From NCBI RefSeq assembly GCF_024972755.1, contig NZ_CP087724.1, positions 2,356,001-2,420,000 on the forward strand: a stretch of 64,000 nt of DNA, written 5' to 3'. The stretch comes from Halanaeroarchaeum sp. HSR-CO (GTDB taxonomy: Archaea > Halobacteriota > Halobacteria > Halobacteriales > Halobacteriaceae). The stretch's first letter is position 1. Each line of letters begins with the position of its first letter. Both the position numbers and the translations under genes were made by a program. Shown in pieces: positions 44,856-55,424 of this stretch. Under the pieces are notes generated by a model. It saw only the letters and a list, made by a program, of their open reading frames with translations, searched no databases and was not told the DNA's origin.

Positions 44856-45980
44856 TCAGGTCGCGGCGGCCCGCTCTTCTAGCTGGCGTATCGTCGCCGG
44901 CGACGCGACCACGTACACCAGGTCGCCGGCCGCCAGCGGTCGCGACATAGGTGGGACCGGGTCGACGGCGTCCTCGGTCGGTTTAACGGCGACGACCGTG
45001 GCTCCGAGGTCGCCGACCGTCGCGTCGACCAGTTGGCTCCCTGGGTCGACGTTGATCGCGGCCATCGTCTCCTCGGCCGCCCTGAGGAGCGCGGCGAACT
45101 CCCGGTCCGCCGTCGGCTCGCTCGGGAGCGTGAGCAGTCGGTACCGGTTGCCCGCCAGCGTCCGGGCCTCCGTCTCGTCGAGGGCGAGTGTGACCACGTC
45201 GCCGGCCACACCGCGCACTTCGCCGGTCGCGACGCGCCGCTTCTCCGCACCGGTCTTCCAGACCTGGACGACGTCGCCCGCGCTCGCGGCGTTCGGTGGG
45301 TCGGCCTCGACGGCCACCGCGGCGCCACCGGGTCCGAGAGTGGGGCCGATGCCCGCGACGCGGCGACCGAGCGCGAGGTACTCCACGGTCCCGTCCGGGG
45401 CGACGTCGAGGTCCACGTAGCCCACGTCGTAGTCGTCCTTGATGCGTGCGCGAAGGCGGTTTTCGAGTTCCGGCCGGCCACCGCGACGGGGGAACAGGAG
45501 GGTCTTTCCGGCGAGTGCGTCCTTCACCCCCTCGCTGGCCGGATCGTAGCCGTCGATGTCGTGGATGGTCTCCGGGAGCGACAGCGAGACCAGGCGACCG
45601 ACGGTCCCGACCAGAGTGCTCACCTCTCCCTCCACGATCTGGGACCCCGCCATCGCCATCACGCTCACCGCAAGTCGATCCCCGCCGCGTCGGCCGAGTG
45701 GCGTGACGAGGGCACCAAGCAGGAAGGACAGCGAGTTGAAGACCACGGCCTCCCAGGTGAGATAGCCCGTCTGCCCGGCGACGACCTGGCCGAGCGCCCC
45801 GCGCGTGTTGAGGTAGAGCGCGACGGCGGAAACGCCCGCGAGCAGGGCGACACCGCCGGGGACCCGGACCCGGACGTACCAGCGATACGCGACCGCGACC
45901 AGCGCGGCCGTCAGGAAGGATAGCACGATCAGTCCGGCGACGCGCAGGACTGGTTCGAGGCTCACCACCTCCGCGACCAT
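44856..45980 (-). CDS. Membrane protein with TrkA-C (RCK_C) domains, second of pair
   Basis: A 374-aa membrane protein. Three to four N-terminal helices (LRVAGLIVLSFLTAALVAVAY and following to about residue 100) precede a cytosolic region of about 250 residues, where a TrkA-C-like fold is visible (VKDALAGKTLLFPRRGG, LVDATVGDLGATVVAVK). No RCK_N nucleotide-binding fold and no K+ channel/carrier helices of TrkH type are present. Its start overlaps the previous gene's stop by one base (TGATG). Function unknown; a ligand-gated membrane sensor or channel subunit is possible. Confidence 0.75.
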   Translation of the reverse strand: MVAEVVSLEPVLRVAGLIVLSFLTAALVAVAYRWYVRVRVPGGVALLAGVSAVALYLNTRGALGQVVAGQTGYLTWEAVVFNSLSFLLGALVTPLGRRGGDRLAVSVMAMAGSQIVEGEVSTLVGTVGRLVSLSLPETIHDIDGYDPASEGVKDALAGKTLLFPRRGGRPELENRLRARIKDDYDVGYVDLDVAPDGTVEYLALGRRVAGIGPTLGPGGAAVAVEADPPNAASAGDVVQVWKTGAEKRRVATGEVRGVAGDVVTLALDETEARTLAGNRYRLLTLPSEPTADREFAALLRAAEETMAAINVDPGSQLVDATVGDLGATVVAVKPTEDAVDPVPPMSRPLAAGDLVYVVASPATIRQLEERAAAT

Positions 45981-47257
45981 CAGGCGACCGCCTCCCTGAA
46001 CCCCTCGACCCCATCGTGTGTCCCCACGACGTACACCTCCGTGCCATCCTGGAGGGGTGTGTCGCCACGCGGCGCCACGCGCCAGCCGGTATCGGTCCGG
46101 ATCGCCAGTATCGCGACGCCGAACTGCGCTCTGGGCGCCAGTTCGCCGAGGGTCGTTCCGTCGAACGCGCCACCGGACCGAAGGGTGACCCGGCGGAGTC
46201 GCTGGCCCGCCCGGTGGAGCAGCGACACGAGTTCGAACTCGCGGCGGGACCCACGGGAGGTGACGACGACCCGCGCGTCGGTCGCGTCGAGGAGGTCCCT
46301 GGCCTCGCCGGGCCTGACGGCGACCGTCACCCGTCCACGGCCCCCGGTCGTGGTCGGTGCCCGCGTTTCCGGCACCGGCGTCGAAATGGCCTGTTCGTCT
46401 GCGCTGGCCTCGATATCGGCCGCATCGTCAGTGCCCTCGGCGGCGGGGTCGGCATCCTGTTCGACCGGCGCTTCAGCCGCCGCCTCTCCGGAGCGGGCGC
46501 TCACGACCCTGCCCTCCACGGCCCCGTCCTCGGTGAGGACCGTGACCGCCTCGCCACGAGCCACCCCGGTTGGCACCAACGCGTCGAAGGAGACCGCCCG
46601 GCGACCGCTCTCGAGACGGCGGGAGACGCCCGAGCGCGGCGGGGCGGCGCTCACGGTCGCTCGACCGCGGGCGTCCATCGTCACCTCCACCGCCTGGAGA
46701 TCGAACTCGGTTCGGTACCGCTCGCCCATTCTGGCCTCGAGTTCCTCGATGGGCAGGTCGGCAGGGAAGCGCCACTCGACGGCGCCGAGGCCCGCCCGGA
46801 GCGGTTCCGGGAGCGGCGGGTAGCCCTCCATGTCCCGCACCTCCCCGACGACCGACACCTGAACCTCGCCGCGACCACCCACGAAGTCGATCACGTCAGT
46901 CGAGATGGTGGTCGCACGGATGGTCTCGAGCGAGAAATGATGCGGGACGGTCGTCGCCAGCCGATCGCCGAGCGAGTGGGTGTACAGCGAGAGCATCAAC
47001 ACGACCACGACCGCGGTCATCAGTGCGATGCTGTTCGCTGATTCGGTGATAGACGGGTCCACGAACGCGAGCAGACCGCCGTTCACGCCCGCGAGCGCGA
47101 GGCCGAGGACGATGACCGCGAACGCCGGGATAGACACGCCGGTGACGTACCGGAAGAGGAACCCGAATCCGAACGCGAGGAGTGCGGGCAACACCCCAGT
47201 CAGGATGCCGAGGTAGAGTCCCCGCAGGACCTCCAGGGGGATCGACGGTGTCGCCAT
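45980..47257 (-). CDS. Membrane protein with TrkA-C domains, first of pair
   Basis: A 425-aa protein with about three N-terminal helices (LYLGILTGVLPALLAFGFGFLF onward to about residue 95) and a long cytosolic part holding a TrkA-C-like domain (RVTLRSGGAFDGTTLGELAP) near residue 355. An acidic, Ala/Glu-rich linker at about 255-300 separates two halves. It is coupled by a one-base overlap to the 374-aa relative. The pair resembles haloarchaeal proteins labelled as TrkA-type potassium proteins, but no K+ transporter is fused. Confidence 0.75.
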   Translation of the reverse strand: MATPSIPLEVLRGLYLGILTGVLPALLAFGFGFLFRYVTGVSIPAFAVIVLGLALAGVNGGLLAFVDPSITESANSIALMTAVVVVLMLSLYTHSLGDRLATTVPHHFSLETIRATTISTDVIDFVGGRGEVQVSVVGEVRDMEGYPPLPEPLRAGLGAVEWRFPADLPIEELEARMGERYRTEFDLQAVEVTMDARGRATVSAAPPRSGVSRRLESGRRAVSFDALVPTGVARGEAVTVLTEDGAVEGRVVSARSGEAAAEAPVEQDADPAAEGTDDAADIEASADEQAISTPVPETRAPTTTGGRGRVTVAVRPGEARDLLDATDARVVVTSRGSRREFELVSLLHRAGQRLRRVTLRSGGAFDGTTLGELAPRAQFGVAILAIRTDTGWRVAPRGDTPLQDGTEVYVVGTHDGVEGFREAVA

Positions 47258-47308: not shown

Positions 47309-48763
47309 CTACCCGCGATGGACGATGGCGACGTCCGTCTCGACGCCCGAGACCTGCTCGAAGGCGGGACGCTTGATGATGCGCGAGGGTTTCGACCGGT
47401 CGGTGCTCGCCCCCATCAACAGCAGGTCGTACTGGGCGCCGTTGCGCTCGACGAACGATCGGAAGGTGGTCTGAGAGACGCGAGTCTCCGCGTGGATATC
47501 CACGACCTCGACGAGGTTCGCGAGCATCCGCTCGGTGGGCCGGCGGTCGCGCTCGCTCGCGATGACCGAGCAGACCGACACCGTCCCGGTCTGGCCCGCG
47601 AGGCGCTGGGCGTACTCGACCATCGCGTTCGCGACGTCTCCCGCACTCCGCACCGTCACCATCACCCGTTTCCAGCGGGGCTCCTCCCGGTTCGACTTGA
47701 ACGCGACGACGTCGAATCGGGCCTGGAAGAGATCACGGATGTAATCGATCAGTTCGCCGTCGCGTTCCTCGTACGGCGCAACGACGAGGTCGCAATCCGT
47801 CGCTTCCGCCGTCTGCAGGACGGTCCCGGCGACGGAACGTCCCACGTGGCTAACGACGACGTCCGTCGGGACACCGACCGTCGCCTGCAGGCTGGCGGCG
47901 TGCTGTTCGAGACGGCGGGCGACGACGTCGGCGGCTCGTCGTTCCGCCGGTGTCGCTTCCTCGTGGATGTACTCGCCGACCGGTTCGACCGTCCCGGACG
48001 CGATGTCGGATTCGGCCGCTGCGACGTCCTCGTCGGTGATCATCCCGAACAGGACGACCTTGCTCGCGTCGTGGGCCGCGGCGAGGCGGGCGCCGAACGC
48101 GGCCGTCCGTTCGGCCGCCTCGGTCCGCATGGGTACCAGCACCCGGTCGTCCGCGTCGGTCGTCCCGTAGAGGTAGGTCGCGCGCTCCTCGTAGAATTTC
48201 GAGCGCCAGACGACGAAGACCAGCGCGACGAACGACGAGGAGAGCATCACGCCCACGATGTACGCGAGTTGTGACGTCCCCGTGATGAGAACGAGCAGCG
48301 CCGTCGAGAAGGCCGTCGGCTCTTCGAGGTCGAGCAGCCAGGTCAGCACACCGGTGAGCAAGATGCCGAACGCCGCCCCCACCGGGTGAACCTCCATCGC
48401 GCCGACCGGAAGCCCGTAGAGGAATCGCGCGGACACGAGCAGGGCGGCCCAGCCACTGAGCGCCCCCAGCGTCATCCCACCCACGAATTTCACGGGCGAA
48501 GAGTACGCTCCCTCGGGGTCGGCGAACAGCGTGTACGTGCCCGAGGCCAGCGGCGGGAACAGGAGAAAAGAGACGGCGCCAATCAGATTCGACAGCAATG
48601 TGACGACCGCGATGAGCAGCGGGGCGAACACGAGCACCGAAACCCGCTCCAGGTGGCTCGTCTGCCCCAGCCACCGCCGGGCTTGCACGAGTTTGCGTCT
48701 CGCGTATCGCCGAGCACTTCCTAGCAGGTCGTCGACCTGCCCCCGTCTGCGGTCCATTACCAC
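47309..48763 (-). CDS. HPP-family membrane protein fused to universal stress (Usp) domains
   Basis: A 484-aa fusion. Residues 35-190 are four to five helices of the HPP family (PPLASGTYTLFADPEGAYSSPVKF, with the family's conserved membrane region). Residues 200-350 and 370-484 are two Usp-like domains (RVLVPMRTEAAERTAAFG and RVMVTVRSAGDVANAMVE) that may bind ATP. Such HPP-Usp fusions suggest stress-controlled transport. It is upstream of, and in the same direction as, the two TrkA-C genes, 51 bp apart, so the three probably form one operon. Confidence 0.8.
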   Translation of the reverse strand: MVMDRRRGQVDDLLGSARRYARRKLVQARRWLGQTSHLERVSVLVFAPLLIAVVTLLSNLIGAVSFLLFPPLASGTYTLFADPEGAYSSPVKFVGGMTLGALSGWAALLVSARFLYGLPVGAMEVHPVGAAFGILLTGVLTWLLDLEEPTAFSTALLVLITGTSQLAYIVGVMLSSSFVALVFVVWRSKFYEERATYLYGTTDADDRVLVPMRTEAAERTAAFGARLAAAHDASKVVLFGMITDEDVAAAESDIASGTVEPVGEYIHEEATPAERRAADVVARRLEQHAASLQATVGVPTDVVVSHVGRSVAGTVLQTAEATDCDLVVAPYEERDGELIDYIRDLFQARFDVVAFKSNREEPRWKRVMVTVRSAGDVANAMVEYAQRLAGQTGTVSVCSVIASERDRRPTERMLANLVEVVDIHAETRVSQTTFRSFVERNGAQYDLLLMGASTDRSKPSRIIKRPAFEQVSGVETDVAIVHRG

Positions 48764-48831: not shown

Positions 48832-49563
48832 TCAGTCGGCGAGGGCCACGACCGCGTCGAGCGCCAGGCCGATGGCCCGTTCGACGTTGTCCCGAGCCTT
48901 CGGCGGGAGTTCGTCCTCGCCCTCGGCCCCCTTCTGGGTCCCCTTCACGAGGTTCCCGTCGACCGTGCAGATGGCGGCCGCGGCGAGTCCCTTGCGGCGT
49001 GCGAGCGTGAAGACCGAGGCCGCCTCCATCTCGACGGACAGGATGCCGGCGTCCTCCCACTCCGCGACGTACTCCTCCGTCTCGGCGTAGTAGGCGTCGT
49101 CGCTGGCGATGGGACCGACGTGGACCGCCTCGTCGTTCGCCTCGGCGGCCTCGACCAGTGCGGTCGTGACCGCGAAGTCGGGGACGGCAGGGAACTCGAC
49201 GGGTTCGTACCGCTTCGTCGTCCCCTCGTTCTTCGCGGCACCGGTCGCGACCACCATGTCGCCGATCTCGACGTCGCGCTGGAGGGCCCCGGTCGTCCCG
49301 ACGCGGATGAACGTCTCCACGCCCACCCGGGCGAGTTCCTCGACGGCGATGGACGCCGACGGACAGCCGATCCCCGTCGAGACGATGGTCAGGGGAACGC
49401 CCTCGTAGGTGGCGTTGACGACCTTGTACTCGCGGTTCTCGGCGACGGTGGTCGATTCGTCGCACTGGGCGGCGATCCGGTCGACCCGGCCCGGGTCACC
49501 GGGGATGAGCGCGACCTCGTGGACGTCGCCGGCCTCGATCTGGAGATGTGGCTGTTTTCCCAT
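48832..49563 (-). CDS. udp: Uridine/nucleoside phosphorylase
   Basis: Phosphorolyses a nucleoside to base plus ribose 1-phosphate. The 243-aa protein is a nucleoside phosphorylase type I: VALIPGDPGRVDRIA near residue 20, GTTGALQRDVEIGDMVVATGA near residue 85, and SVEMEAASVFTLA near residue 178. The start is at MGKQPHLQIEAGDV. The last gene of the nucleoside operon (R15P isomerase, DUF63, PfkB kinase, then this gene). Confidence 0.88.
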   Translation of the reverse strand: MGKQPHLQIEAGDVHEVALIPGDPGRVDRIAAQCDESTTVAENREYKVVNATYEGVPLTIVSTGIGCPSASIAVEELARVGVETFIRVGTTGALQRDVEIGDMVVATGAAKNEGTTKRYEPVEFPAVPDFAVTTALVEAAEANDEAVHVGPIASDDAYYAETEEYVAEWEDAGILSVEMEAASVFTLARRKGLAAAAICTVDGNLVKGTQKGAEGEDELPPKARDNVERAIGLALDAVVALAD

Positions 49564-49642
49564 AGCGGGCGTTTCTCGCCTTCGGTGAAAAAGCGCGACG
49601 ATTGGTCGGCGTTGCGGGTCGGTCAGGCGGGCAGGGATGCGA

Positions 49643-50572
49643 TCAGTCGACGCTCCGGCGGTCGACGAGGAACTCCTCGGCGTCGGCGCGCGTGGGTGCG
49701 GTCCGCGCCCCCTCCTCGCAGGCTGCCATCGCACCACAGGCGTTCGCGATCCGGAGGGCACGGTCGAAGTCACCGGCCCGGATCGTCTCGCGCGCCACCC
49801 CGTCCCAGGCTCCGAGGACGACCGCGAGGAAGCCGGCGGCGAAGGCGTCGCCCGCGCCGGTGGTGTCGACCGGATCCACGTCGAATCCCGGGGACTCGAC
49901 CACCGCCTCGTCGCTGTAGACGGTCGCCCCGTTCGCACCGTGTTTGACGACGAGAACGCGGTCGGTTCCCGCAACTGCCTCCCTCGGGGCGGTACTGGCC
50001 AGTGCGACGGCTGCCTCCCGCTGGTTCAAAAAGAGGAGGTCGACGCGATCCGGGAGGTCGCCGTAGTCCCGTTCCGAGAGTCGGCGGCCGGGATCGAAGG
50101 AGACCGTCACCCCCGCGTCTCGTGCGATCCCCGCCAGTCGCTCGGCGGTCTCCGGCCGCTGGCTGGTCAGGTGGAGGTGGTCGGCGTCCCGGACGACCGT
50201 CGGGTCGAGGTCGGCGACCGAGAACGCCTCGTTCGCGCCCTCGTTGCCCAGGACCATCACCTCCCCCTCGGCGTCGACGATGAGGTACTTCACGGTCGTC
50301 TCGGCGGAGCGGACCGTTCGAAGCGCGGAGACGTCGACGCCGTCGCGGTCGAGTTCGCGGCGCGCGAGAAAGCCCGGTTCGTCGTCGCCGACGCTGCCGA
50401 TAACGCCCGCTTCGGCCCCGTATCCCGCGATGGCGGCGGCGACGTTCGCCGCACTGCCCCCACCGGACCGACGCTGGGAGGAGATGCGTGCCTCGCCGTC
50501 CGGCGCCGGCAACGCCGCCACGCGGAGCGTGACGTCCCAGTTGACGTGGCCGGCGGTGACCACCCGAACCAT
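49643..50572 (-). CDS. PfkB-family sugar/nucleoside kinase (candidate ribose-1-phosphate kinase)
   Basis: A 309-aa ribokinase-fold kinase with GGGSAANVAAAIA near residue 36 (substrate side) and the DTTGAGDAFAAGF anion-hole motif near residue 236. Classical ribokinase and adenosine kinase are alternatives. The gene lies 79 bp upstream of uridine phosphorylase and downstream of a ribose-1,5-bisphosphate isomerase in one operon, which fits a kinase converting ribose 1-phosphate to ribose 1,5-bisphosphate as reported for halophilic archaea. That role is inference from context. Confidence 0.78.
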   Translation of the reverse strand: MVRVVTAGHVNWDVTLRVAALPAPDGEARISSQRRSGGGSAANVAAAIAGYGAEAGVIGSVGDDEPGFLARRELDRDGVDVSALRTVRSAETTVKYLIVDAEGEVMVLGNEGANEAFSVADLDPTVVRDADHLHLTSQRPETAERLAGIARDAGVTVSFDPGRRLSERDYGDLPDRVDLLFLNQREAAVALASTAPREAVAGTDRVLVVKHGANGATVYSDEAVVESPGFDVDPVDTTGAGDAFAAGFLAVVLGAWDGVARETIRAGDFDRALRIANACGAMAACEEGARTAPTRADAEEFLVDRRSVD

Positions 50573-50595
50573 ACGTCGACCTGTGCGGGCCCGGA

Positions 50596-51414
50596 TTAAA
50601 ACAGTGAGGGACCCAGGACGATGAACAGCAGGACGTTGTGGGCGCCGGGGCCGAGCCCGACGGCGATGACGAGCCCCAGCAGTCCGAATCCCTCGGCGGG
50701 CTCCTCTCGAACGTACCCCGCCAGCAGCCAGAGTACGACCGACGCCATTCCGAGTTTCACCAGCACGAACAGCCAGCCGACGCCCAGCAGGTCCGCGGTC
50801 GGGAGCGCCCCGGCGGCCTCCATGATGAGTCGGGACAGCGGCGACTGCTCCCCGAAGCCCAGGAGGTCGATGCCCACCGCCGTCGAGACGCCGTCGAGAG
50901 CGTGGGCGAAGAAGACGAGCGGGCCGGCGAGGCCCACGGTCGTCGCGTCGGCGGGCCTGACGGTCTCGAACAGTTTCCAGACGACACCGGCCAGGATGGC
51001 TCCGCCTGCGACGCCCAGCAGTGGCACGACCGGCGTGAGTCTCCCGGAGGCCATTCCCACCCAGAGCGCGACGGCAGTCGGAACGACGGCTGCGATGACG
51101 CCGACGCCCCCAAGGGATGCCAGCGGCCGTGGCGTACGGCGAACGACGAGCCAGGTCGTCCCAGCAAACACGAACGTCGTCCCGTAGACCGCCGGCGACC
51201 CGAAAAACGGAGCCACGATAGCCGGTACCACGTCAAGTTTCGACACGACGTAGGCCGTCGCACCGGCCACCATCCAGGGCGAGAGGGCAAGTATCGTCCG
51301 GTCGGAGATCGTCACGCCAGCCCGTCGGAGCGCCCAGACGACCGCCGCGAGAGCGGCGAGAAGAAGGACTGTCTGGGGGAGCGGCGGTATCGTCGATCCG
51401 GCAGGCAGCACCAT
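50596..51414 (-). CDS. DUF63 membrane protein
   Basis: A 272-aa integral membrane protein with about eight helices. The DUF63 signature is visible as FFAHALDGVSTAVGID and GEQSPLSR, then GLGPGAHN near the C-terminus. The function of DUF63 is unknown. It lies 23 bp upstream of the PfkB kinase and 34 bp downstream of the R15P isomerase gene, all on the minus strand, so it belongs to the nucleoside-breakdown operon. A nucleoside or ribose transporter, or a membrane partner of the pathway, is possible. Confidence 0.78.
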   Translation of the reverse strand: MVLPAGSTIPPLPQTVLLLAALAAVVWALRRAGVTISDRTILALSPWMVAGATAYVVSKLDVVPAIVAPFFGSPAVYGTTFVFAGTTWLVVRRTPRPLASLGGVGVIAAVVPTAVALWVGMASGRLTPVVPLLGVAGGAILAGVVWKLFETVRPADATTVGLAGPLVFFAHALDGVSTAVGIDLLGFGEQSPLSRLIMEAAGALPTADLLGVGWLFVLVKLGMASVVLWLLAGYVREEPAEGFGLLGLVIAVGLGPGAHNVLLFIVLGPSLF

Positions 51415-51448
51415 AGCTGAAGACCTCGTCGGGGACGTGAAAGCGTTG

Positions 51449-52426
51449 CTATCGATCGTCGGCGCTGACGGCGTCTCGGTTCGATGGCTCCGTCCACGGC
51501 TGATCGTCGACGTCGCCGTAGAGTTCGCGCATGAGCGTCACGATGCTCTCGGGCGGGAACTGGCCCCGTTCGGTCACGATAGCGTCGACGTAGCGGGGCG
51601 GCGTCACGTCGAACGCGGGGTTGCGCACCTCGATGTCCCCGATCTCCTCGCGGTCGGCGGAGGAGATGACCTCGTCCTCGTCGCGCATCTCGATCTCGAC
51701 CGTGTGGCCGGTGAGCGTGTCGGGATGGAGTTTGAGGGTCTGTGCGGCGACCATGATCGGGGTACCGCGGTCCCTGGCGCTCACGGCGAGGCCGCTCGTC
51801 CCGATCTTGTTGATGACCGATCCGTCCGCCGCGATGGAGTCGGCGCCGACGACCACGTGGTCGACGTCGTTGAGGTAACGGTGGGCGGCGTTGTCCACCA
51901 CGAGCGTGACCGGGACGTCCATCTCGCGGAGTTGCCGAGCGGTGATGTGGCCCTGTTTGCGCGGTCGCGTCTCTTTGACGTATGCCTCGACGTGCTTGCC
52001 GGCCTCGACCGCTTTCTCGACCGTCGCGAGGGCGTCGGTCGAGTGGCAGTGAGTCATGATGACGTCGCCGTCCCGCAGACGGTTCGCCCCGATCCGACCC
52101 AGTCGGTCCTGGGCCGACTCGAGGTCGGCGACGAAGGTCTCGACGGTCCGCTCGACCGACGACCGGAGCGCCTCGACGGATTCGCCGGCCATGCCATTGA
52201 GCACGAACCGCAACGAATTGGGGAGGCTGACGGCAGTCGGCCGGGTGTCGAGGAGGACGCGGGCGGCCCCCCGCATCTCGGCGCGGAACGCCTCGGGATC
52301 CGCGGCGTCGCTCTCCTCGGCCTGCACGGCCAGGGCCTCGGCGGCGGCACGGGCGATGGTCGCGGCCCCCCTGATCTCCATCGACGCGATGTCCTCGGCC
52401 GTTGCATCGACCGTCTGTGTCGCCAT
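51449..52426 (-). CDS. Ribose-1,5-bisphosphate isomerase
   Basis: A 325-aa eIF2B-like (aIF2B/MtnA superfamily) protein. The catalytic Cys is in MTHCHSTDALAT near residue 135 and the Asp in VVGADSIAADGSVINKIGT near residue 210. It would isomerise ribose 1,5-bisphosphate to ribulose 1,5-bisphosphate. The upstream frame is not homologous, so MATQTVDATAED is taken as the start. An aIF2B subunit or methylthioribose-1-phosphate isomerase is the alternative, but the kinase and phosphorylase in the same operon support R15P isomerase. Confidence 0.85.
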   Translation of the reverse strand: MATQTVDATAEDIASMEIRGAATIARAAAEALAVQAEESDAADPEAFRAEMRGAARVLLDTRPTAVSLPNSLRFVLNGMAGESVEALRSSVERTVETFVADLESAQDRLGRIGANRLRDGDVIMTHCHSTDALATVEKAVEAGKHVEAYVKETRPRKQGHITARQLREMDVPVTLVVDNAAHRYLNDVDHVVVGADSIAADGSVINKIGTSGLAVSARDRGTPIMVAAQTLKLHPDTLTGHTVEIEMRDEDEVISSADREEIGDIEVRNPAFDVTPPRYVDAIVTERGQFPPESIVTLMRELYGDVDDQPWTEPSNRDAVSADDR

Positions 52427-52508
52427 ACGGTGGGATAGGTGGCCGGCGGGCAAAAACGTCCGGGCCTGGCCGACACCTTGACTATCGAACAAGTACTCAG
52501 CGGGAAGT

Positions 52509-53114
52509 ATGCACGCAGAACGGCGGTCTCTCTACGCCCTCCTCGTCGTCACCATCGTCGGTGCGGGTATCGTCGGCTTCGGATTCGTCGACGCGAGTAT
52601 CCTCGAGAGCGAGACCACCATCGACTCCTCGGTCGGTACCAGTCAGGTGAACAACGCCAGGGCCTCACTCGACGGACCCGTGACCCTCTACGTGGCCGGC
52701 GACGGGTGGCTCGAAGCGGGGATGGCCGACCGCATCGCCGACGATCTCGCGCAGCGTGGAGCCACCGTGACCCGTGTCGAATCACTAGAAAAGGACAGCG
52801 AGGGCCCGATACTCGCTATCCTGGTCACCGAATCGTCGATTTCCTACTCGCCGCTCTCCCCCTCGTCGACGGTCGAAACGTCCTTCGCGTACGTTCACTC
52901 GGGCAATGCGACGCTCGCCAGCGCGATAGTCGACGATGCGCCGATCGTCATCGACAATCGCGACGCCTACGTCGTGGATGGCGACGTTACCGTCGCCGAT
53001 CGCAGCAGTGGGCTCGCGACCTGGCCGGCCTATCAGCGACGGGTCGCCACGGCGAATGCGAGGGCGGTGACGGACGCGCTCGCGAGTGCGCCGGGGATGG
53101 ACCAGCCGAATTAA
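52509..53114 (+). CDS. Membrane-anchored protein, unknown function
   Basis: A 201-aa protein with one N-terminal helix ([20 protein letters not shown]) and a soluble domain thereafter that looks extracytoplasmic ([39 protein letters not shown]). The alternation of beta-strands and Ser/Thr is suggestive of an exported, possibly solute-binding, fold, but no family is recognised. It is divergent from the R15P isomerase gene, 82 bp away, and upstream of deoC in the same direction. Confidence 0.6.
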
Positions 53115-53116
53115 TA
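53111..53116 (+). promoter_or_regulatory. TATA box of deoC
   Basis: TTAATA overlaps the previous stop codon and lies 24-29 bp upstream of the deoC ATG at 53140. Confidence 0.5.
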
Positions 53117-53139
53117 CCATCGCTCGAGACGGCCCGTCC

Positions 53140-53787
53140 ATGGACCGAGCCGAACTCGCCAGCACCATCGATCACACCGTGCTGGGCCCCGAGACGACGT
53201 TCGCCGACGTCACCAGGGTCGTCGACGAGGCCGTCGAGTACGGGATGAACGTCTGCATCCCGCCGTGTTACGTGGCCGAGGCCAGGGAGTACGCCCCCGA
53301 GGACTGCACCGTCGCCACCGTCATCGGCTTCCCGCACGGACAGAACGCGCCGGCGGTCAAGCGGGCGGAAGCCGAGAGCGCCAGGGACGACGGAGCCGAC
53401 GAACTGGACGTCGTCATCAATGTGGGGCGGCTGAAAGCGGGTGACAGAGACGCCGTACGCGCCGAAATTGCCGCCATCGTCGAGGCGGTTCCGCTCCCCG
53501 TGAAGGTCATCATCGAGACCGCGTTGCTCACCGACGCGGCAAAACACGCCGCCTGCGAGGTCGCCGTCGAGGCCGGAGCGGACTTCGTGAAGACCTCGAC
53601 CGGGTTCGCGGACGGCGGCGCGGCGGTCGAGGACGTCGAACTCATGGCCGAGTACCTGCCGGTCAAGGCCAGCGGCGGTATCGGCGACTGGAAGGCCGCC
53701 AGAGCGATGCTGGCCGCCGGCGCGGAGCGAATCGGCGCGAGCAGCGGCGTCGCTATCGTCGAGGACTTCGAGGCGTCCCGCAGTTAG
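53140..53787 (+). CDS. deoC: Deoxyribose-phosphate aldolase
   Basis: Cleaves 2-deoxyribose 5-phosphate to glyceraldehyde 3-phosphate and acetaldehyde. The 215-aa TIM-barrel enzyme has the Schiff-base lysine in DFVKTSTGF near residue 147, a second Lys in [16 protein letters not shown], and the Asp of DVVINVGRL. The start [19 protein letters not shown] is canonical. It completes a nucleoside-degradation set with the phosphorylase and isomerase. The stop overlaps that of the membrane aminopropyltransferase-like gene by 4 bp. Confidence 0.93.
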
Positions 53788-55424
53788 CGCGCCACGGACG
53801 CCGTCTCGTTCGTCTCCGAGACGACGTACCGGCGGTCGAGTTGCGAGTCGAGGAGTTCGTCGACCGGCGCCTTGTCGTCGCGGAGGACGGGCACGTCGTC
53901 GGTCCGGATGGTGTCGGAATCCATCATGCGGGAGACCGCCGTCTCGAGCGGGACGCCGACGTCGCGCTCCTCGGCCCGTGTTTGCAGTTGCCCTCGTGTC
54001 AACTGCTGTTTCGACGCCACGACCTCGATGTTCTGGAGGAACACCGTCTCGGAGGTCGGGAACGCGTAGACGTACGGGAAGGCCTCCTTCATCGTCTTGT
54101 ACTCGGCCCTGAAGAACGCCGAGCCCGAACCCGAGGGCCGGGAGATGATGTTCGCGACCAGCATCCCGTCCTCGTCGAGGCGGTCGGCGGCGAGGTGCAT
54201 GAACTCGACCGTCGTCAGGTGGAAGGGGACCTGATCTGACTTGTAGGCGTCGAGGACGATGACGTCGTACTCCGTGTCCGTCTCGTCGAGGAACGCGCGC
54301 CCGTCGCCCTCGTGGACCTGTAACCGGTCTGACTCCGCCAGTCCGAAGTAGTCCTCGGCTGTCTGGATGACGACCGGGTCGATCTCGACGACGTCGACGT
54401 TCACGTCGGGATACTCCTCGACGAACCGCTGTGGCGCCGTGAACCCACCCCCGCCGATGAACAACACGTTGTCGACGTCGTCTTGCACCAGCATCGGGAT
54501 GTGTAAGTACCGCAGGTACTCGAAGACGTAGCCTTCGCGGTCGTCGACGTAGGTCGCGCTGTGGGGAGTTCCGTCGAGGTAGAGCGTCCGGACGCCGTCG
54601 TCGTCTGCCACTTCGAGTTGCTGGTAGGGCGTCTGGGTCTGGTAGACGATCGAATCGCCCGTGGAGATGCTGGCGCCCCCGAAGGCGAACGCGCCCACGA
54701 CGAGTGACGCGATGACCACCACGCGCACCATCTCCAGAGAGCGGGGAGCGCGGCGAAGGACGATGACTGCTGCCGCCCCGACGAGGAGGACACCGAAGAA
54801 CAACTCGATGATCGGGACGGACAGCGACGGGATGAGGACGAAGGTCGTCCCGAACGTTCCGGCGATGCTCCCGATGGTCCCGAGCGCGTACACCCGACCG
54901 GACGCGCCGCCGGTGCTCTGCTCCCGGGAGAGCTGGGCGGCGTAGGGGCTGATAAACCCGAGCAAGTAGACCGGCGGCCCGAAGAGCACCGCTATCGGCA
55001 GGATCACTGCATAGCGGTTCGGGAGCGGCAGCGTGTCAGTGAACTGCAACAGTAGATCGCCAGCCGCGAGCAAGAACGCGACGAACAGCGCGGATTGCGC
55101 GAGGATACCGGCGAGGGCGAGTGGACTCGCCTTCGCTGCCGCACGCTTGCCACCGTACCAGTATCCAAGGCTCAATGCGACCAGGAACACCCCGATGATG
55201 CTCCCCCAGGTGTAGATGCTACTCCCGAACTCGGGGGCGATGATCCGGCCCGCGAGAATCTCGAGGCCCATGCTCGAGAAGCCGGAGACCAGGACCGCAC
55301 CTTCGGCGGTCTGGATGGGGACCGAGAACCGGGCGGTGTCGGCGTTCGACTGCACGACGGTTCGTTGGTCACGCGGTCGGAAATACGTGTCCCGTCCGGA
55401 GGGCGACGAATCCGCCCGAAACAC
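53784..55424 (-). CDS. Membrane-embedded spermidine-synthase-like protein
   Basis: A 546-aa fusion. About seven helices (residues 40-255, [20 protein letters not shown] and onward) precede a cytosolic SpeE/SAM-methyltransferase-like domain (about 270-520). The second domain has the SAM/dcSAM glycine motif [12 protein letters not shown], the [18 protein letters not shown] acidic contact and the [18 protein letters not shown] loop. Such fusions exist in archaea and bacteria; whether they make polyamine is not shown. No decarboxylase gene is adjacent. It is monocistronic. Confidence 0.8.

Follow-up and report, generated by a model that had tools for sequence, protein, structure and literature searches.

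The closest described system is the haloarchaeal pentose bisphosphate pathway (Sato 2022, PMC9700705). Activities have been demonstrated for orthologues of three of its enzymes, i.e., the Urdpase1-type nucleoside phosphorylase, the ribose 1-phosphate (R1P) kinase R1PK, and the ribose-1,5-bisphosphate (R15P) isomerase, and these three enzymes form a haloarchaeal operon. One assayed Urdpase1, Hlac_2318, preferred guanosine as substrate. In the operon of Halobacterium salinarum (VNG_1850G/1851G/1853G) a DUF63 gene is located between the genes for the isomerase and R1PK. Three downstream variants of the pathway were distinguished in the same study. H. salinarum has a ribulose-1,5-bisphosphate (RuBP) phosphatase and a Ru1P aldolase and lacks Rubisco; another variant, "Rubisco without NMP phosphorylase" (variant ii), is related to the pathway of the Thermococcales.

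The locus studied here is from Halanaeroarchaeum sp. HSR-CO. The window, i.e., the whole stretch of DNA that was analyzed, comprises 64,000 nt (NZ_CP087724.1, positions 2,356,001-2,420,000), and the block of interest extends from position 48832 to 53787 of the window (Table 1). Six genes had been listed in a preliminary description of the block, and each of them was recovered as an intact ORF at its assigned position or close to it. The gaps of 79, 23, and 34 bp within the minus-strand operon were obtained again upon re-measurement, and the ORF positions confirmed that the gene starting at 52509 and deoC are divergent to it. The latter two genes are separated by 25 bp. Genes and gene order of the operon are the same as in H. 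salinarum, including the position of the DUF63 gene.

Table 1. Features of the block and of its flanking genes (positions in the window; bit scores from profile searches).
Feature	Position	Strand	Family match or remark
TrkA-C domain membrane protein	45980-47257	-	follows the HPP-Usp gene; recurs next to the cluster in many haloarchaea
Fusion of HPP transmembrane and universal stress protein (HPP-Usp)	47309-48763	-	recurs next to the cluster in many haloarchaea
Urdpase1-type nucleoside phosphorylase, 243 aa	48832-49563	-	PNP_UDP_1, 156.5 bits (cut-off 25)
PfkB kinase, R1PK	49643-50572	-	NF053626, 422 bits (cut-off 330)
DUF63-B membrane protein, 272 aa, about 8 membrane helices	50596-51414	-	PF01889, 77.6 bits (cut-off 25)
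Ribose-1,5-bisphosphate isomerase, 325 aa from the ATG at 52426	51449-52426	-	TIGR00511, 471.7 bits (cut-off 314)
Divergent intergenic region, 82 bp, between the minus-strand operon (isomerase gene) and the plus-strand 52509/deoC pair	52427-52508	.	
52509 protein, N-terminally anchored, 201 aa	52509-53114	+	no family; sporadic
deoC, deoxyribose-phosphate aldolase, 215 aa	53140-53787	+	TIGR00126, 219 bits (cut-off 117.3)
Fused membrane/spermidine-synthase-like protein	53784-55424	-	NF037959; 3' end convergent with deoC, 4-bp overlap

The isomerase and R1PK both scored above the cut-offs of their families, and R1PK contains a DTTGAGD motif at residue 236. The phosphorylase is a clear member of PNP_UDP_1, and with 221 bits it stayed under the cut-off of 280 of the uridine phosphorylase equivalog. 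It shares 67% identity with the operon copy of H. salinarum and 46% with the second phosphorylase of its own genome (Urdpase2), and, thus, it was assigned to the Urdpase1 type. It had been described before as a uridine phosphorylase. The phosphorylase part of this name was retained, but the uridine label was replaced by "Urdpase1-type", because of the substrate preference of the assayed member (PMC9700705). As judged from these family assignments, the operon is predicted to encode the already described haloarchaeal route from nucleoside ribose to RuBP, and HSR-CO would be a further haloarchaeon with this known pathway. The minus-strand operon would represent the upper half of this pathway. The phosphorylase would free ribose 1-phosphate, probably with guanosine as the preferred substrate, R1PK would convert it with ATP to ribose 1,5-bisphosphate, and the isomerase would form RuBP. 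The sugars of deoxyribonucleosides would be handled by the deoC product. The order of reactions from nucleoside to RuBP that had been proposed for the block is thereby supported.

Next, the fate of RuBP was considered. The genome contains one form III Rubisco (TIGR03326, 615 bits, cut-off 497, profile search). Alignment to the solved form III enzymes 2cwx and 6hun revealed that the KPK, KDDEN, and HRAMHAAF segments as well as the GK of loop 6 are conserved, and the enzyme looks intact. Its gene is not linked to the operon; upstream of it are genes for an FBPase-family protein and a DeoC/LacD-type aldolase. In this region (C1:1288000-1298000) the Rubisco gene is also preceded by a gene for a DUF7409/HHH protein, and the Rubisco genes of two related genomes (L201, L204) have upstream genes of similar size. 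A profile search with Aldolase_II (PF00596) yielded no match in the genome of HSR-CO or in that of its congener. Matches were obtained with the same search in 19 further haloarchaeal genomes, among them that of H. salinarum, which served as positive controls, and therefore a Ru1P aldolase of known type is absent from the genome of HSR-CO. The best match to the NMP phosphorylase TIGR03327 in the genome of HSR-CO had 29 bits, compared to a cut-off of 535. Because a form III Rubisco is present, Aldolase_II is missing, and the NMP phosphorylase stays below its cut-off, the genome was assigned, on gene content, to the putative carriers of variant ii (Sato 2022). Phosphorylase, R1P kinase, R15P isomerase, and form III Rubisco are common to both. 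In contrast to the Thermococcus pathway, R1PK is ATP-dependent here and an NMP phosphorylase is lacking. Rubisco is encoded outside the operon. Most likely, RuBP would be converted by the Rubisco encoded elsewhere in the genome to 3-phosphoglycerate.

The preliminary description had placed the locus in the non-carboxylating pathway, i.e., the operon would supply a branch with RuBP phosphatase and Ru1P aldolase. The same upper operon indeed supplies this branch in H. salinarum and in further species without Rubisco (PMC9700705). However, H. salinarum lacks the Rubisco that HSR-CO possesses, and in HSR-CO Aldolase_II was missing, although the positive controls worked, and the form III Rubisco is complete, so that the non-carboxylating branch does not fit this genome and is very improbable. 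A survey of 145 haloarchaeal genomes gave the general picture. Isomerase and R1PK were both present in 51 of the 53 Rubisco-bearing genomes, and they were found without Rubisco in 41 of the 145 genomes. In several haloarchaeal genera the Rubisco gene is located beside the gene for R1PK or the isomerase. Both downstream routes can be supplied by one and the same upper operon, and the operon alone is no ground for calling the non-carboxylating branch.

A hydrophobic segment is located near the N-terminus of the 52509 protein, and its model contains an alpha/beta domain (pLDDT 83.9). No family match was found, and permissive Pfam scans of its family gave weak and inconsistent matches. Among the surveyed genomes clear orthologues at the same position were detected in only three others, all of its family, and it was absent from the surveyed congener. 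The 52509 protein is sporadically distributed and does not belong to the conserved block of pathway genes. The best Foldseek matches were PelC, TraT, and LptE-like lipoproteins, but their TM-scores below 0.6 were too weak to assign a function.

The DUF63 protein encoded in the operon belongs to one of the DUF63 paralogues, termed DUF63-B. It had been noted that DUF63 has no known function. Under the terms tried no functional study was found in the literature, but a published proposal exists: for arCOG02177 membrane remodelling and a possible enzymatic activity were predicted (Makarova 2015, PMC5898192), and the shared neighbours indicate that arCOG02177 and PF01889 are probably the same family. 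In the remainder of the phylum, outside of Halobacteria, nearly all genomes contain DUF63, almost always as a single copy. At 20 such loci its neighbours included SpoIIM (10 loci), a glycerol-1-phosphate-dehydrogenase-like Fe-ADH (11), prolyl-tRNA synthetase (11), and UPF0179 (9), which is the neighbour set underlying the published prediction. The neighbours of DUF63-B, in contrast, are nucleoside genes. In a phylogenetic tree DUF63-B formed one clade on a long branch with a support of 100/100. An alignment showed that it retains H171, D174, E189, and K220; common to PF01889/arCOG02177 and DUF63-B are, besides H171, D174, and K220, also G181 and the G253/P256 region. The residues R55, E58, D59, H191, R259, and R263, all of them conserved in the other DUF63 groups, were lost, and the invariant residues W47 and W88 were gained. 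In Haloferax volcanii a DUF63 gene, HVO_2859, is listed among the OxsR binding targets.

One explanation is that DUF63-B retains an ancestral-type role in the envelope or in membrane lipids, and that its position reflects inherited synteny. The neighbours of the methanogen-side DUF63 and the prediction based on them argue for such a role, but most of the charged residues common to the other groups are lost in DUF63-B, and an older-type DUF63 copy is also kept in all 29 haloarchaeal genomes checked. The distribution bears on this explanation as well. All 145 genomes contain DUF63-B, 119 contain R1PK, and 94 contain the isomerase; in 24 genomes DUF63-B is present and both enzymes are absent. Its universality in the class is in accord with the inherited role, as is the fact that the conserved synteny takes in unrelated genes: a K+ channel gene was found at 85 and MiaB at 57 of 141 loci (the window locus and 140 further haloarchaeal loci). 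The usual block consists of MiaB, deoC, and then divergently [isomerase] DUF63-B [R1PK] phosphorylase, HPP-Usp, and the K+ channel. However, DUF63-B is located directly upstream of R1PK on the same strand in 69 of the 145 genomes (32 genera, 7 families; median gap 69 bp), and the reversed order was never seen among adjacent pairs. Because adjacency, strand, and order are kept in so many genomes, the arrangement is not due to chance, and its invariance speaks against mere inheritance of position. Overall, the retained envelope or membrane-lipid role is quite conceivable, with a probability just short of even.

Alternatively, DUF63-B could be a functional membrane partner of nucleoside or deoxyribose breakdown, e.g., by transporting nucleosides, freed bases, or a product of the pathway through the membrane. 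The frequent location directly upstream of R1PK argues for a partner. In addition, at least one gene for phosphorylase, deoC, R1PK, or isomerase was found within 6.5 kb of DUF63-B at 115 of the 141 loci; this and the other neighbour counts are approximate and probably low, as they stem from a simple gene caller that left DUF63 uncalled at 8 loci. Thus, the paralogue tends to sit with the nucleoside module across haloarchaea, as had been suspected, and is not usually found away from it. A phosphorylase gene or deoC is still present within this distance in 20 of the 24 genomes that lack both R1PK and isomerase. The remodelled intramembrane residues would fit a changed substrate. However, in 33 genomes R1PK and isomerase are adjacent or close and DUF63-B is found elsewhere, and the conserved K+ channel and MiaB genes illustrate that synteny alone is no proof of joint function. 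In a tree of R1PK the DUF63-linked and unlinked copies were interleaved with low support, which says little about independent re-linking. In many genomes of one family (f3) a gene for a small HalOD1-domain protein lies between R1PK and the phosphorylase (L037:8524-8727; cluster of 31 loci).

A more specific version of the partner had been proposed before, namely that DUF63 is a candidate nucleoside transporter or partner. The linkage to nucleoside genes stood up, but the transporter proposal was weakened on three counts. First, DUF63-B occurs universally, also in genomes that lack R1PK and isomerase. Second, the AlphaFold2 model of DUF63-B (pLDDT 95.5, pTM 0.91) had no match among solved structures, known transporters included, at E<=0.001 in Foldseek (best listed TM-score 0.27), and a profile search against PDB sequences gave no match. 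Third, an operon elsewhere in the genome encodes a Bmp substrate-binding protein, an ATPase, and two permeases, followed by a cytidine deaminase and the second phosphorylase (Urdpase2). By its gene content this Bmp ABC importer is an ordinary candidate for nucleoside uptake, and, thus, a second importer in the operon would be unnecessary. A dedicated nucleoside transporter explains DUF63-B poorly, and the importer operon and the missing fold match also weigh against the wider role as a membrane partner, which is possible but doubtful. The Bmp importer operon (C1:1863000-1879000) adjoins a phosphoglucosamine-mutase-like gene, the product of which might be a phosphopentomutase.

The best explanation, which is held with high confidence, combines an upper-pathway operon, RuBP that would flow to Rubisco, deoC for deoxyribose, and a DUF63-B that is anchored to the region, but would be independent of the presence of the kinase and the isomerase. 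The persistent linkage to R1PK in 69 genomes is not accounted for by this explanation and hints at a functional tie. It is unlikely, although compatible with the data, that DUF63-B underwent neofunctionalisation to a haloarchaea-specific membrane partner in the breakdown of nucleosides or deoxyribose, with a repurposed polar site within the membrane and a fold that is absent from the PDB. In any case, the role of DUF63-B is directly testable: this membrane protein is universal in haloarchaea, its model is confident, no solved structure shares its fold, and its location next to genes of nucleoside degradation is conserved. Three further DUF63 proteins (L308, L309, L334) from three haloarchaeal genomes grouped on a long branch with the non-haloarchaeal proteins, which suggests a third type of DUF63 in some haloarchaea.
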